From Sporosarcina sp. FSL K6-2383 (lineage in GTDB: Bacteria; Bacillota; Bacilli; Bacillales_A; Planococcaceae), in assembly GCF_038618305.1 (NCBI RefSeq), contig NZ_CP152017.1:3600001-3664000 (forward strand): 64,000 nt of DNA. The letters run 5' to 3'. A program made the translations under genes and the position numbers. The notes under the pieces were generated by a model. That model made no database searches. It was not told where the DNA came from and saw only the letters and a program-made list of their open reading frames with translations. Shown piece by piece: positions 10,884-41,523 of this stretch (position 1 is the first letter of the stretch; each line of letters starts with the position of its first letter).

Positions 10884-11270
10884 GTGCAGCCAATATGCAT
10901 AAAAGATACCGGTAAGTATGGCAGGGGAATCTATGCTACGCGTGATATTAAAACAGGTGAAATCATCGAGGTATCGCCTGTTTTAATATCGCATAAAAAT
11001 GAATGGAAGTATTTACAGAAGACTATCCTTTTTGATTACTGCTTTACTTGGGGTAACAATTATGAGCATATTGCAATTGCGCTAGGGTATGGATCACTTT
11101 ATAACCACTCCTATACTCCCAATGCAACGTTTGATAATAATACAGATAATTTGTCAATCGATTTTTATGCGCTAGATGACATTAAGATGGGTGATGAAAT
11201 TACTATAAATTATAATGAGCATGCCAATGATAGATCTCCATTATGGTTTGATGTCATATCTGTTGATTAA
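10884..11270 (+). CDS. SET-domain protein, C-terminus altered by a mobile element
   Basis: A compact 128-residue SET domain, the fold of lysine methyltransferases. It shows KYGRGIYATRDIKTGE at the start, ALGYGSLYNHSYTPNA (the NH motif of the cofactor pocket) and MGDEITINYNEH near the end. Bacterial stand-alone SET proteins are poorly understood. The GTG start follows AAGGAG. The last three residues and stop are supplied by the inverted end of the 621-bp element inserted at 11259. Joining the flanks across the 15-bp duplication restores an ending WFDVID followed by TGA, so the change is minimal. Location after cotH suggests sporulation expression, which is untested. Confidence 0.82.
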   Translation: MQPICIKDTGKYGRGIYATRDIKTGEIIEVSPVLISHKNEWKYLQKTILFDYCFTWGNNYEHIAIALGYGSLYNHSYTPNATFDNNTDNLSIDFYALDDIKMGDEITINYNEHANDRSPLWFDVISVD

Positions 11271-11879
11271 CCATTTACTTGTATAAATTGTAACTAAAAA
11301 AAGGATTGAAACCCCATTTTCACTGGACTATTTCCGGTTCGCTTTCGGCGAAATATTCAAGACATAATTACCGGGGAGCAAGTGTGGCTACAATGTTTAA
11401 GTGAAAAATGCAGTTGCTTGGAAAGAAAAGAATAGAATAGATGACTTTCTATAAAGGACGTAAGTGCTCGAAGATGCAATTTCGGGCACTCTTGCACATT
11501 GTATAAAGTGTTGTTACTTTACTTTTTAGCAAGCCCTATAAGAAAGTGACACTTTATAAACTAAAAATGGAAAAGACCATGGTGAAAGCTTCGGTCGCCA
11601 AAATTGCATCCTTGGCGGCTCTTTCCAGTTAGAAGCCATCTATTCCCTCGTCCCCAAAAGCATTAGCACTTCATGTATCTGCATTTTTGGAGAGCGGCGG
11701 ATGAACGACCACTATACGATTACCCAAAAGAATGAATAGGGATGCGGCGAAGTCGCATCCCTATTCATAAAACAGCACGGTTATTGTATAGAAGTCGTTC
11801 AATCCCAAAGCGGTCAAAAGCGTCTAGACGCAGAGCGCCTAGTGTTTAATTAAGTTATGTTTGGTTAAATCAACAGACG
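11259..11879 (+). mobile_element. structured non-coding element, copy 1
   Basis: A 621-bp segment without convincing ORFs. Its ends are inverted: TCTGTTGATTAACC at the left and GGTTAAATCAACAGA(CG) at the right. It is flanked by a perfect 15-bp direct repeat, TGGTTTGATGTCATA, at 11244-11258 and 11880-11894, a clear insertion footprint. It aligns along its length with 21574-22254 and with the reverse of 38989-41459. It lacks a block of about 120 bases that the other two have. Internal hairpins lie at 11463-11490, 11594-11619 and 11732-11768. No transposase is encoded, so it must be mobilised in trans or by an RNA route. Confidence 0.85.
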
Positions 11880-11917
11880 TGGTTTGATGTCATAGATTGA
11901 ACAGGAAACACTATAGA

Positions 11918-21490: not shown

Positions 21491-21573
21491 TGGTATTCTT
21501 TTAACATTTACAGTACTTTTTTAACACGACACCTTCATTAAGCATATTCATGAATGAATAATAAACAGCATAC

Positions 21574-22254
21574 CTAGTGATTAACTATTTATTGCATTAA
21601 TCACCGACACGCAAAGGTTTGAAAATTTATATTTTCACTAGGCCATTTTCGGTTCGCTTTCGGCGAACTATTCACGATACTATTACCGTATGACAAGTAT
21701 GTTTAGAAATGACTCCGTCATTTCTAAACATATTTTTTCGGTTATCTTATTGCGAATACTCGCCTGTCGCGCACCTACAACATTCAAGTGAAAAATGCAG
21801 TTACTTGGAAAGAAAAGAATTGATAAATTTCTAGAGCGAATGTAAGTGCCCGAAGATGAAATTTCGGGCACTCTGTCGCTATGTACAAGTTGCTCCTACT
21901 CTACTTGTAGCAAGTTTTATAAAAAATGACACTTCCTAAAATAAAAATGGAACAGACCATGGTGAAAGCCTCAGCCGCCAAAATTGTATCTTTGGCGGCC
22001 CTCTCCAGTTAAGTAGTCCTTTATTCCCTCGTCTACAAAAGCATTAGTACTTCATGCATCTGCCTTTTTGAAGAGCGACGGATGAACGACCACAATACGA
22101 TTACCGAAAAAAGTATAGGGATGCGACGAAGTCGCATCCCTATACTTGAAAATAGCACGGTTATTATAGAGTAGTCGTTCAAGCTAAAGCGAACCAAAGG
22201 GAATTATACATAGAGTGCCTCGTATGGATTAAGTTGTTTTTGATTAATCAATAG
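21574..22254 (+). mobile_element. structured non-coding element, copy 2
   Basis: A 681-bp relative of the element at 11259, same orientation. The ends are CTAGTGATTAACT and TGATTAATCAATAG. It carries all four hairpins: 21701-21729 (GTTTAGAAATGAC stem), 21845-21872, 21974-21999 and 22111-22147. Target duplication is no longer clear; weak flanking similarity (ACAGCATA and ACAACATA) suggests an old insertion. ORFs in it are under 65 codons and are not conserved in the other copies. Confidence 0.8.
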
Positions 22255-22271
22255 CCGTGACAACATAAATA

Positions 22272-27961: not shown

Positions 27962-28255
27962 AACTTAATTCAGCAAATGTATTTGTACTGAAAGCGAAGC
28001 GTCAGCTACAGAAGTCCTCTACTCCTATAAGTGGCAGGGTGAATACTAAAATGCCTGCAATTCAGTGGGGGTTCCAAACCCCAGCTGAATTAAGTTAAGC
28101 CTCCGGCGGATGTCACAGATTTTGAAGGGAGTTAAGGAAGGCAACCTAAGACCGCCGCGTCCTGCGGCAACGGTTGCATGACCTACATCCTGTAGCTCTC
28201 AAGCGCAATTCAAAATCTGGACGCAATCACGCCGAGGCATGATTGATTGAAAATG
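27962..28255 (-). repeat. hairpin repeat family 2, copy C (long form)
   Basis: Read on the minus strand it matches copy A: TCAATCATGCCTCGGCGTGA then TTGCGTCCAGATTTTGAATTG, later TTCAAAATCTGTGACATCCG and CCGGAGGCTTAACTT, then a tail. The loop between the arms is about 90 bases instead of 22 and has its own inverted parts (ccgttgccgcagg/cgcggcggtc). It fills the gap between the SMR genes and the HAD gene. Confidence 0.78.
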
Positions 28256-38080: not shown

Positions 38081-38989
38081 ATGAAGCAATCTGATTTAAT
38101 TCCAGTCGTCAATAAAGGGTTTGAAATAAATTACTTTAGTAAAAAAAATCATTCCCAAGGTTGGTTCAAAAAATTTAACGAATCATCTGAGGACTTTTCC
38201 CAATGGGAGTCTTTATTCCAATTGCACAGGCATGATGTTTTGGAGGTTCTTGTCTTTTTAAATGGCGAGTGTAAATTCTTTTGTGAAGGGAAGACATATT
38301 CCTTGCGGCGAGGAGACGTTGTGGTCATCCCTCCTTACGCTGTACACAAAGCTACTGTTAAGCATATGGATAGTTACGAACGCATAATTGTTAGCGTGAG
38401 CGAGCAGTTAATGGACGACTTTCTATCCAGCTCACCATCTATGAAAGAAAATATTGTTAATCAAAAGACACAAAGCTCGCACGTATTGCATCTGCATGAA
38501 AAAAAACTCCAAGACGTACATTTTCTACTCAATGAAATAAATCATAAAATTATAAATGAAGAAGAAAACTTTCCTTTCACCATAAATTATCAGTTGTTTC
38601 AGGCTCTTCAAATACTCTTTGATCCCACAAGTAGTATGCCCAACCTTAGCAACAACAATAAACTAGACCAACGATTCGTATCTATACTAGAATATATTGA
38701 ATTACATTTGACTGAACCGGATTTAAGCTTAGACAAAGTATCTACTCATTTTCATTTGAATAAATACTATTTCTCTCATTACTTTAAAAAGAACATGAAC
38801 CTCCCCTTTTACCGTTATGTATCACTGAAGCGTCTATCCTTTGCTGTAACGATGATTAAACAAAATCAGCTCCCCATTGAGGAAGTAGCCTTGAAATGCG
38901 GTTTTCTAGATTATTCAAGTTTCTATAGGCTCTTCAAAAAGGAATACAATCTTTCACCAAAAAAGTTACAAATGGAATATAAAAATTAA
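38081..38989 (+). CDS. AraC-family regulator with cupin sensor domain
   Basis: A 302-residue regulator. Residues about 40-110 form a cupin-type sugar-sensing fold (LHRHDVLEVLVFLNGECKFF, GDVVVIPPYAVHKA). The C-terminal 100 residues are the AraC double helix-turn-helix (PDLSLDKVSTHFHLNKYYFSHYFKK and IEEVALKCGFLDYSSFYRLFKKEYN). The ATG at 38081 is preferred. It is divergent from the GH3 gene and probably controls it. Its stop codon lies inside the direct repeat that flanks element copy 3. Confidence 0.9.
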   Translation: MKQSDLIPVVNKGFEINYFSKKNHSQGWFKKFNESSEDFSQWESLFQLHRHDVLEVLVFLNGECKFFCEGKTYSLRRGDVVVIPPYAVHKATVKHMDSYERIIVSVSEQLMDDFLSSSPSMKENIVNQKTQSSHVLHLHEKKLQDVHFLLNEINHKIINEEENFPFTINYQLFQALQILFDPTSSMPNLSNNNKLDQRFVSILEYIELHLTEPDLSLDKVSTHFHLNKYYFSHYFKKNMNLPFYRYVSLKRLSFAVTMIKQNQLPIEEVALKCGFLDYSSFYRLFKKEYNLSPKKLQMEYKN

Positions 38990-39435
38990 TGTCTGTTGAT
39001 TAACCAAACTTAATCAAATAATGTGCAATCTAAGTTCAATCGCTTTTTAGTTCGCTTTGGATGAAACAACTTCTATACAATAACCGTGCTATTTTCATGT
39101 ATGGGGATGCGACTTCGCCGCATCCCCATACATTATTTTCGGCAATCGTATGATGGTAGTTCATCCGTCGCTCTCCAAAAACGTAGATACACGAAGTGCT
39201 AATATTTTTTAGGACGAGGGAATAGAGGGCTTCTTAACTAGAGAGGGCCGCCAAAGATACAATTTTGGCGGCAGAAGCTATCTTCATCATTTCTACCATT
39301 ATTATTTTAAACCCTATCATTTTCTTCTAAAGTGTTTCGCAACATGAAAAAGTAAGGCTGTTTTCGTATAGATTGTTGCTTTTTTGACCAGACTGTTAAA
39401 ATGTTGATACAATACGGTTAAGAAGGCGTTCAAGT

Positions 39436-40443
39436 ATGTGGACAGATGTATATGAAGACTTCAGCGATTTAACCAAATCAGAGCAATTGGCATTGTTTAA
39501 AGCAATGAAACAAGACTTATTTCCAGATGACCCCGATAAAATCACATCACTACTCAAAAGCATTCGTGAAGCATGCTTTGCTTCTGGTTTGGGTTGCGTT
39601 CATTGTGGGAGTAAATCAGTCAAACGTAATGGCAAATATCGCTCAAGACAACGGTACCTGTGTAGTGATTGCGATAAATCTTTTAACGATATGACAAACA
39701 CGCCATTTTCAGGCTCACATTACCCCGAGAAGTGGGTCAAATACATTGAACTGATGGTTGAAGGCTATACACTGCCGAAAATCGCCAAACGCCTACAAAT
39801 CCATATATCTACGGCTTTTTACTGGAGACATAAAATCCTGAATGCATTAGGAAGCCAAGGCTTTAATCAACTACAAGGTATCGTTGAAAGTGATGAAACC
39901 TTCTTTCGTGAGTCCATGAAAGGAAAGGAAATCACTCACAGAAAAGCGAAAAAACGTGGGGAGAAAGACGAAAAGCGTGGGATATCCAACCTCAAAATTG
40001 CCGTTGTGGTCGCACAAGACCGAAATGGAAGTGTGATTGCTCGTATTGCGGGAAGAGGTCGCCCCAAAGCCGAAGAAATTGACACGGTGATAGGTGAATA
40101 CATTCACCCATCTGCTTTGCTATGTACAGATACAGCCACGAACTACAAGAAGTTCGCCAAAATAAAGGGACTCAAGCACGAAACGGTAAATGAACGTCAA
40201 AAACAGCGTGTTAAGAAGGGTATCTATCACATCCAACACGTCAACAACTTCCACAATCGTTTAAAGGCTTGGATGGTACGTTTTCAAGGAGTTGCCACTA
40301 AGTACCTTGACAACTACCTTTACTGGTTCCGTTGGCTTGAAATAGACAAACAAATAGCATTTGATGAACGAGTCAAACAAATGCTTGTTTCTGCTTGTCG
40401 AAAGTCAAATTACTATACAGTAGAAATGTTAAGATGTCCTTAA
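39436..40443 (+). CDS. IS1595-family (ISXO2-like) transposase
   Basis: A 335-residue transposase. The N-terminal zinc-binding part has CVHCGSKSVKRNGKYRSRQRYLCSDC. A helix-turn-helix follows (LPKIAKRLQIHISTAFYWRHKIL). The catalytic ISXO2-like domain contains VESDETFFRES, LLCTDTATNYKKFA and the late HVNNFHNRLKAWMVRFQGVATKYLDNYLYWF block. The reading frame is intact and the ends match, so it may still be active. AAGAAGG precedes the ATG. Confidence 0.93.
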   Translation: MWTDVYEDFSDLTKSEQLALFKAMKQDLFPDDPDKITSLLKSIREACFASGLGCVHCGSKSVKRNGKYRSRQRYLCSDCDKSFNDMTNTPFSGSHYPEKWVKYIELMVEGYTLPKIAKRLQIHISTAFYWRHKILNALGSQGFNQLQGIVESDETFFRESMKGKEITHRKAKKRGEKDEKRGISNLKIAVVVAQDRNGSVIARIAGRGRPKAEEIDTVIGEYIHPSALLCTDTATNYKKFAKIKGLKHETVNERQKQRVKKGIYHIQHVNNFHNRLKAWMVRFQGVATKYLDNYLYWFRWLEIDKQIAFDERVKQMLVSACRKSNYYTVEMLRCP

Positions 40444-40446
40444 AGG

Positions 40447-41016
40447 TTAATTATTAGGGTCATATTTGTTGCTTCCAGGAAGTTTCTTGATTTTATTCCA
40501 GGCTTCAATTGCTTCTGCACGAGTTTTACCTTGATTCTTCGGGTCAGCAAAAAAGTCACGAGTGAATTGATTGTATTCAAATTGAGGTGCAATCTTTTTC
40601 TTGAATGTGGGGTCTTTCTTTCGTTCTTCTTCCTCATACCAAGCATTTACAACATCACGATACGTTTTTCCTACGTTACTTTTAAAGTAGTTTTGGATAT
40701 ACGTTGAAAAATGAAATTTGGGAATAGTCGCCTTGAAAAAGGCTCTTACATCTTGACTACAACGATGGTTTTCAGTAATAACTGTATCGAGACTTAAATC
40801 AACTTGTGGTTTTATTTTCTTGTTTATACTTGATTTTCTGATAGTTTTTTTTATCTCTCCTGTTTGAAGAAATGTCTCAATCCTATCTGAAATCTCTATT
40901 TTCGAGCCAGAAGAACTAATTCCGCTTTCTCTGCAAAATGCTTGCAATTCTTCTTTTAACCAATAGAAATCTTTAAAACTCTGGAAACTAATATCTTTCG
41001 TTAGATTAGGTCTCAA
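40447..41016 (-). CDS. SAP-domain passenger protein of the IS
   Basis: A 189-residue protein lying wholly inside the IS, tail to tail with the transposase at a 3-base distance. The N-terminal 50 residues resemble a SAP helix-hairpin DNA-binding motif (LKEELQAFCRESGISSSGSKIEISDRIETFL). Two later segments are alike: FSTYIQNYFKSNVGKTYRDVVNAWYEEE and FTRDFFADPKNQGKTRAEAIEAWNKIK, which recall the DUF6434 type. I place the start at a TTG after GGAGGTG. It may help transposition, bind target DNA or be cargo; no function is known to me. Confidence 0.75.
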   Translation of the reverse strand: MRPNLTKDISFQSFKDFYWLKEELQAFCRESGISSSGSKIEISDRIETFLQTGEIKKTIRKSSINKKIKPQVDLSLDTVITENHRCSQDVRAFFKATIPKFHFSTYIQNYFKSNVGKTYRDVVNAWYEEEERKKDPTFKKKIAPQFEYNQFTRDFFADPKNQGKTRAEAIEAWNKIKKLPGSNKYDPNN

Positions 41017-41523
41017 TAGAATCACCTCCAATTATACTTAATCACATTATAGAACAACCGTTCCTGAAAATCAAAAATAATAATATCCAATAGCAATATA
41101 CTTTACGAAAACAGCCAAAAGTAAAGACTTTATTCAATGTCCAATAGTTCCCGAAATTGTATCTTCTGGAACTTACATACTTTTACAATGTCATCTATTC
41201 TTTTCTTTTCTTTTCTTTCCAAGTACCTATATTATTCATTTGAGCATTGGAGGTTTGCGACAGGCAATGATGCACAATAGGATAATCGATAACTGCGTTT
41301 CCGGTAATGACGGAGTCATTGCTGGAAACATGATTCCTACGGTTATTTTATCGTCCATCCATTGCCGAAAGTAAGCCGGAAATGCCCAAGTCAACAGGAA
41401 GTTTTCTGATTCTTGCTTTCTAGTTTTAATTATAAGTAAATGGTTAATAAGCAGACGTGATAAAAATTATAAGTAGGTCGCGTCTAGTACATCACTCATC
41501 CAAGCATATCGCCAGTACAAAGA

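Follow-up and report, generated by a model that had tools for sequence, protein, structure and literature searches.

Paired changes in the hairpins of a Sporosarcina transposable element look more like template-switch footprints than proof of a working RNA

Among the kinds of sequence evidence for a functional RNA, changes that affect both sides of a stem usually rank highest. We analyzed such changes in three related repeats found in a window of 64,000 nucleotides from the genome of Sporosarcina sp. FSL K6-2383 (NZ_CP152017.1, positions 3,600,001 to 3,664,000). All three are copies of a non-autonomous Sporosarcina transposable element (MITE), and the paired changes in their hairpins are real, yet they look more like slips of DNA copying that match one arm to the other than proof of a working RNA. 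At a probability of roughly 0.7, our reading is that the element represents a new MITE family, in which template switching homogenizes the terminator-like palindromes. Selection on an RNA is not needed to explain the pairing, even though some of our counts lean toward G-U pairs, and we regard a mutational footprint as the best reading of the hairpin covariation.

The Three Repeats Are Copies of a MITE

The copies in the window and their parts are as follows.

11255..11881, plus strand: element copy 1, 627 bp, from the terminal-repeat scan; without hairpin A (a gap in the alignment)
21569..22259, plus strand: element copy 2, 691 bp, from the terminal-repeat scan and the sequence
38988..41459, minus strand: element copy 3, from terminal-repeat matches; split by a 1761-bp insertion sequence
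11732..11768, minus strand: hairpin B of copy 1, from sequence and alignment
22111..22147, minus strand: hairpin B of copy 2, the stem of the original prediction; perfect 17-bp stem, 3-nt loop
39097..39133, plus strand: hairpin B of copy 3, in the corresponding sense, this element copy being on the minus strand
21695..21735, plus strand: hairpin A of copy 2; a stem of 19 pairs with a 3-nt loop, followed by a T-run
41297..41329, minus strand: hairpin A of copy 3; another stem sequence, two unpaired positions
11463..11490, plus strand: hairpin C of copy 1, from sequence
21845..21872, plus strand: hairpin C of copy 2; 8-nt loop
41146..41173, minus strand: hairpin C of copy 3, from sequence
11596..11617, plus strand: hairpin D of copy 1, from sequence
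21974..21999, plus strand: hairpin D of copy 2; 8-nt loop
39247..39272, minus strand: hairpin D of copy 3, from sequence
39356..41116, no strand assigned: IS1595-family insertion sequence in copy 3, with ends GGCTGTTTTCG and an 8-bp duplication TTACTTTT

Elsewhere, the window holds a Bacillaceae-1 RNA at 28130-28196 (RF01690, 75.7 bits), outside any ORF of at least 100 aa, and a SAM riboswitch at 2161-2268 on the minus strand.

The element has 19-bp terminal inverted repeats, with CACGTCTGTTGATTAACCA present at both ends, and the aligned copies show sharp boundaries, CACGTCTGTTGATTAACCA...TGGTTAATCAACAGACGTG. When up to 6 mismatches in 18 were tolerated in the scan, both ends were found in 65 of the 90 oriented loci (64 without a duplicate) and one or none in 25. 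The identity of the two flanks, computed for 64 copies, was 0.81 at 9 bp vs. 0.39 at 8 bp and 0.32 at 10 bp; 9-bp duplications with at most two mismatches in nine were present in 47 of the 64, compared with 0.9% of randomly paired flanks. In the window, perfect 9-bp duplications flank copy 1 (gtttgatgt, 11246-11254 and 11882-11890) and copy 3 (aatttttat, 38979-38987 and 41460-41468); the ends of copy 2 have decayed, with 6 and 3 mismatches in 18, and no 9-bp target duplication was detectable at either of its flanks. Copies 1 and 2 contain no ORF of at least 100 aa, and the ORFs of copy 3 sit in the inserted insertion sequence (IS). That IS, assigned to the IS1595 family by Pfam (PF12762 DDE_Tnp_IS1595, 9.7e-19; also PF18953 and PF20026), bears a SAP/DUF6434 passenger gene and is foreign to the element, copy 3 having been split by it later than its own insertion. 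Neighboring ORFs overlap the element edges, reaching 16 bases into copy 1 and 2 bases at the end of copy 3. The ORF of a SET-domain protein (10884-11270) enters copy 1, and its stop codon lies within the terminal repeat of the element.

Three copies make a thin case for covariation, and we therefore collected more. With copy 2 as the query, the element was found in about 36 places of its own genome, fragments included, a count derived from 49 rows by merging six neighboring pieces and omitting seven reverse-strand matches within copies, with 40 of the 49 candidates scored. Based on the best nine candidates per genome, the same query matched at least 10 of 61 genomes, the element's own included: 10 of the 37 from the same genus and 0 of the 24 outside it; among these best nine candidates, the genomes G007, G025, and G036 had one short match each. 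A pattern scan of named genomes returned 63 stretches; Sporosarcina records contain 52 of them, and contigs under the title Arthrobacter beigongshangensis the other 11. One such assembly, NZ_JADHDX01 (titled Arthrobacter beigongshangensis REN13), has 42 element matches (L154, L166, L173, and others); the taxids 2782538 (Sporosarcina beigongshangi) and 2782539 (A. beigongshangensis) are neighbors, and the labels may therefore be swapped.

From the 90 oriented loci, we removed one duplicate (L049, identical to L130) and three in which neither end was found (L007, L013, and L112), leaving an alignment of 86 copies: 20 each from G002, G009, and G031; 16 from G014; 7 from G000, the genome of the window; and 3 from G027. 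For 22 of the 86, a single end was found and 740 bp were taken from it, so that some flanking DNA is included in the alignment; 80 loci were fetched mostly from the best-scoring, near full-length matches, and short or decayed copies are thus underrepresented.

Full-length elements measure ~630-780 bp and are strongly diverged: among the 86 sampled copies, the nearest neighbor is 87% identical at the median and 93% at the maximum. The two duplications flanking a copy differ at 12.5% of positions, which gives roughly 6% per copy since insertion (57 of the 64 copies, the seven with more than four mismatches being omitted), and the mean change on terminal branches of the tree is 7.0%. Internally deleted versions exist between recognizable ends. 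One of these, L211 (G009:C17:48100-48600), is a 179-bp derivative with both terminal repeats and little of the interior; if its deletion preceded the insertion, movement may not require the hairpins.

We consider the element a new and old MITE family of a known kind, with an unusual nested palindromy. Literature searches found no paper joining Sporosarcina with the phrase miniature inverted-repeat, and those on MITE folds or IS4-linked MITEs returned no matching paper. Like the element, the bcr repeats of Bacillus cereus are dispersed, foldable, mobile-looking intergenic repeats in Bacilli; judged from descriptions rather than sequences, they differ from it in size and ends. The Acinetobacter MITEAba12 (PMC6382973) shares its ends with an autonomous IS, makes 9-bp duplications in AT-rich targets, and occurs in many dispersed copies without a transposase gene, with the similarity to the IS limited to the ends, all as in our element. 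That IS-derived MITE, however, is given there as 111-114 bp long, folding weakly and without predicted terminators; ours is longer and strongly diverged, with nested palindromes and terminator-like hairpins.

A Probable IS4-Family Partner

An IS4-type transposase probably mobilizes the element in trans, since IS4-family ISs of the genus have ends identical or almost identical to its own and make 9-bp duplications. Transposases with PF01609 occur in 30 of 41 genus genomes. Among 33 loci fetched, L223, L227, and L236 differ from the 19-bp terminal repeat by 1-2 mismatches at the better end and by 2-5 at the other; exact 9-bp duplications flank L227 (in G002) and L236, and none is seen at L223. 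In four IS4-type loci of G006 (L266-L269), one terminus is identical to the 19-bp end of the element and the other nearly so; an exact 9-bp duplication is present at L267, L268, and L269, not at L266. Of 11 partner-like IS loci, seven have such a duplication (L255, L256, L260, L263, L267, L268, and L269). The L223 transposase scores 201.6 bits with NF033592 (cut-off 115) and 6e-30 with PF01609; those of L266-L268 are 45% identical to that of L227, the NCBIfam assignment resting on L223, and L269 (1133 bp) is broken by stops.

These ISs (L223, L227, L236, L256, and L266-L269) resemble the element in their terminal repeats and, in most, in their 9-bp duplications, but they are mostly 1.26-1.30 kb long and have a transposase gene; the similarity is limited to ~35 terminal bp and one weak internal match of 22 bp. 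A search by the terminal repeats without the element interior revealed no autonomous element among the matches listed. The L227 transposase matched 11 of 61 genus genomes at E 1e-40 or better, and at this threshold it has no relative in the window's own genome or in G009, G027, and G031; in G014, the L227-type transposase exists only as a broken copy. This pattern is consistent with old, stranded elements, as is the divergence among the copies. ISLre2 elements (PF06782) are known for 9-bp duplications and were considered as the partner; as 2 of 41 genomes had no more than three weak fragments of them, they were dropped in favor of IS4.

Covariation Is Concentrated in Short-Spaced Hairpins

The consensus matches its own reverse complement over columns 115-625, 64-229, 507-680, 200-390, and 432-459. 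Close to each end lies a near-perfect hairpin with a 3-nt loop, hairpin A at columns 131-167 and hairpin B at 574-608; hairpins C and D occupy columns 280-307 and 433-458, and the loop of D is complementary to that of C in most copies. In copy 2, the two outer hairpins are terminator-like and point inward, A from the left end and B, on the minus strand, from the right end.

The original prediction rested on the three window copies, and its observations were accurate. The strongest stem is found at 11732-11768, 22111-22147, and, on the minus strand, 39133-39097, with exactly the arm pairs reported: GAATAGGG/CCCTATTC, GTATAGGG/CCCTATAC, and GTATGGGG/CCCCATAC. In this hairpin B (17-bp stem, 3-nt loop), the copies differ on both sides of the stem at three pairs, each copy having one such difference of its own (columns 4/34 in copy 1, 2/36 in copy 2, and 7/31 in copy 3); a one-sided difference lies by the loop at column 16, where copies 1 and 3 have G-T and copy 2 has A-T. 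The second stem, our hairpin C, reads AGTGC/GCACT at 11463-11490 and 21845-21872 and AGTTC/GAACT at 41173-41146, with the T-G wobble described for copy 1; copy 3 has in addition an A-G mismatch that had gone unmentioned. The GTTTAGAAATGAC stem of copy 2 (21695-21735) has indeed a counterpart of another sequence in copy 3 (41329-41297), two positions of which are unpaired; copy 1 lacks the hairpin. The hairpin is retained while its sequence changes.

The sides also change together beyond shared ancestry. Changes were reconstructed by parsimony on a FastTree tree, and the branches on which both partners had changed were compared with a branch-weighted Poisson expectation. Across 219 consensus pairs in the 86 copies, we counted 202 same-branch co-changes vs. 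90 expected; when the partners were slid by 1, 2, 3, or 7 columns either way, the counts were 85-107. The excess is concentrated in the two hairpins with 3-nt loops (56 vs. 5.7 and 31 vs. 4.3). No single pair passes a 5% false discovery rate among all column pairs in this count, and the evidence is therefore at the level of helices. We also ran a covariation test of the R-scape type, as the original prediction had advised (a G-test with APC and 20 tree-based null alignments). It left a single pair above the highest null score, columns 577-605, 97% canonical and within the very stem first singled out; we judge the test low-powered, as the deep clade structure leads to high null scores.

The excess follows the spacing of the arms. 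For strand-neutral pairs, the co-changes are as follows.

3-nt loops: 85 vs. 10.0 expected, ratio 8.46 (95% interval 6.76-10.46)
8-nt loops: 7 vs. 0.9, ratio 7.79 (3.13-16.05)
Spacing of 53-106 nt: 30 vs. 12.2, ratio 2.45 (1.65-3.50)
Spacing above 110 nt, outside the ends: 32 vs. 25.6, ratio 1.25 (0.85-1.76)
Terminal repeats: 15 vs. 16.3, ratio 0.92 (0.52-1.52)

Covariation is thus strong in the short hairpins, weak in the arms, and not clear in the long-range helices and terminal repeats; such a gradient of arm homogenization with spacing is the one expected of a template-switch hot spot. Mispaired columns of the 3-nt-loop hairpins gave a ratio of 1.34. With the tree rebuilt without the hairpin columns, for all copies and three subsets, the ratios were 4.4-11.8 for hairpin A, 5.9-7.9 for hairpin B, 1.2-2.4 for the arms, and 0.9-1.4 for the long-range helices. 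Double changes from Watson-Crick pairs led in 121 cases to another Watson-Crick pair, in 6 to G-U, and in 28 to an unpaired state. The weak points of these counts are the parsimony reconstruction, the sampling of well-preserved copies, and possible recombination among copies, which could shift whole hairpins and inflate the branch counts. On most branches with double changes, a single pair is affected (24 of 33 in hairpin A and 14 of 19 in hairpin B), and few events are therefore diagnostic alone.

Mismatch Balance and Loop Inversions

By strand symmetry, a neutral or DNA-level process should leave equal numbers of G-T and A-C mismatches, while in an RNA G-U is the favored mismatch of its own strand. 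For the 164 pairs that the folds of both strands predict, changes in one partner of a Watson-Crick pair gave 346 G-T and 351 A-C; hairpins A and B together gave 35 and 48. There is no overall RNA-style wobble tolerance, and the claim that paired change reflects selection on a folded RNA is not supported. (A count on the plus-strand fold, 1467 vs. 575, was not used, since G-U had been allowed on that strand when the fold was chosen.)

Parts of the data lean otherwise. Pairs predicted on one strand only lean mildly to the wobble of their own strand, as those of an RNA would, with G-T vs. A-C at 158 vs. 124 for the plus-strand fold and 137 vs. 157 for the minus-strand fold, and this counts against the template-switch reading. 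So does the lean to G-U where broken pairs were repaired: of the repairs in hairpins A and B, 14 started from G-T, 5 from A-C, and 3 from others, with G000 and G014 responsible for the lean (13 vs. 3) and the other clade without it (1 vs. 2); in helices spaced by more than 110 nt, 39 started from G-T, 16 from A-C, and 24 from others, the breaks there being 151 G-T and 131 A-C. The stems of domain A (columns 83-210) have an excess of A-C (98 vs. 51 G-T) that unpaired columns lack and that would fit either minus-strand wobble tolerance or a strand-biased mutation process; those of domain B, at 94 G-T vs. 80 A-C, do not share the lean. Substitution is slower in stems than in unpaired columns (C>T 0.051 vs. 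0.090 per base), a comparison biased by the choice of complementary columns as stems.

The loops, too, carry a signature. In the alignment, the 73 loops of hairpin A are TCC (32), TTC (21), GAA (6), GGA (5), and others (9), and the 77 of hairpin B are AAA (43), GAA (18), TTT (5), TTC (1), and others (10). GGA, GAA, TTT, and TTC are exact reverse complements of common loop forms, from which they are three substitutions apart. Inverted loops thus make up 11 of 73 in hairpin A and 6 of 77 in hairpin B and require at least 8 and at least 5 switches on the tree. The counts were taken from the alignment; a separate collection of hairpins holds some reversed entries.

Discussion

The mechanism that we propose builds on the palindromes of the element, which are nested at several scales. 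Near each end lies a near-perfect palindrome with a 3-nt loop and a T-run on its inner side, in the sense in which it would stop transcription coming from the flank. Inverted repeats with so short a spacing are hot spots of template switching during replication: the polymerase would copy one arm onto the other, and a mutation in an arm would either be erased or be copied across, appearing as a compensatory change. A switch of templates could also flip the hairpin loop. Covariation would thus arise without selection on an RNA, and the dependence on spacing, the absence of an overall wobble bias, and the loop inversions lead us to this view. An IS4-family transposase that recognizes CACGTCTGTTGATTAACCA ends and makes 9-bp duplications would move the MITE in trans.

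Template switching between inverted repeats has been reported to homogenize their arms and invert the spacer (PMC8604942 and PMC8794818). Quasipalindromic sites with arm homogenization in short-spaced inverted repeats, like those of the element, are described in PMC8794818, PMC8604942, and PMC7202029, and inversions of the loop or spacer in the first two. In rRNA, according to PMC8794818, compensatory changes were accompanied by loop inversion in 6 cases out of 9,931, and G-U pairs were involved in 78.5% of the two-step compensations. PMC8794818 deals with rRNA and microRNA genes and PMC8604942 with coding genes of yeast; here, the target is a multicopy, noncoding mobile element.

Selection could nevertheless have matched the arms in other ways. 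Hairpin A on the plus strand and hairpin B on the minus strand may be intrinsic terminators, the compensatory changes being selected for the RNA stem that shields the element or its neighbors from incoming transcription. Both scored as terminator-like and inward facing in the two copies scanned, copy 2 and L059, where a stable hairpin is followed by a T-run and termination itself is predicted; a T-run follows hairpin A within 10 nt in 62% of 97 copies (outer side 2%) and an A-run precedes hairpin B in 73% of 131 copies (outer side 8%), percentages that include some entries read in reverse, and the pairing is kept as the sequence drifts. On the putative sense strands, however, G-U does not exceed A-C as it should (12 vs. 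24 in hairpin A; 24 vs. 23 in hairpin B, minus strand), the columns of the T-run and the A-run change by 5.8% and 8.9% on terminal branches compared with 7.0% overall, and the loops invert. No terminator constraint is visible after insertion, and we consider it unlikely that selection for termination has shaped the stems. It is highly improbable, in our view, that the whole element is one large structured RNA under selection, multibranched, ~700 nt long, and held by a contact between the loops of C and D. The predicted fold of copy 2 has an energy of -210.1 kcal/mol (z -11), reached by none of 20 shuffles, but a stable fold is found for the minus strand too (-234.6, z -9.1, again none of 20), as a nested DNA palindrome would give. 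The long-range helices lean slightly to G-T over A-C and yet show no clear covariation. Hairpins C and D are the slowest-changing parts, and their commonest loops, GATGCAAT and ATTGCATC, are exactly complementary; the loop variants, however, combine at about the frequencies expected under independence, and we do not claim a loop-loop pair. No Rfam family reaches its gathering score over the element; a relaxed search on one copy, L059, gave six matches to miRNA and sRNA models, far below the gathering scores, which we dismissed as palindrome artifacts.

The original prediction had offered selection on a DNA hairpin as the alternative. In placing the process in DNA, it comes nearer to the evidence than RNA does, the mismatches being without overall strand preference and the palindromes nested; its selective part is unnecessary to explain the pairing. 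A hairpin or cruciform kept matched as, for instance, a recognition or regulatory structure for transposition sits poorly with terminal repeat-bounded copies that lack hairpin A (copy 1, with its perfect duplication) or most of the interior (the 179-bp L211), even if the losses may postdate the insertions, and with compensatory changes that persist on terminal branches (32 of 47 in hairpin A), where selection for transposition should no longer act. We give it very little credence.

Template switching leaves the conservation of the C and D loops unaccounted for. On terminal branches, these hairpins change by 1.9-2.3% in the stems and 2.8-3.1% in the loops vs. 7.0% overall, being two to four times more conserved than the element average, loops and stems alike. 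It is conceivable, if distinctly unlikely, that single copies stay functional once inserted, C and D changing by 1.9-3.1% where the decay of the duplications would lead one to expect ~6%; each copy may then act as a binding site or as an RNA or DNA pairing through its loops. If true, the inward terminators would insulate each copy, and the genome would gain dozens of dispersed regulatory islands.

With clear paired change in a noncoding transposable element, flipped loops, and no overall wobble bias, the family provides a natural case for separating the covariation made by mutation from that made by selection and serves as a warning for RNA discovery in MITE-rich genomes. For the organisms themselves, an IS4-linked MITE with terminator-like hairpins near both ends could affect the surrounding transcription in several Sporosarcina genomes.
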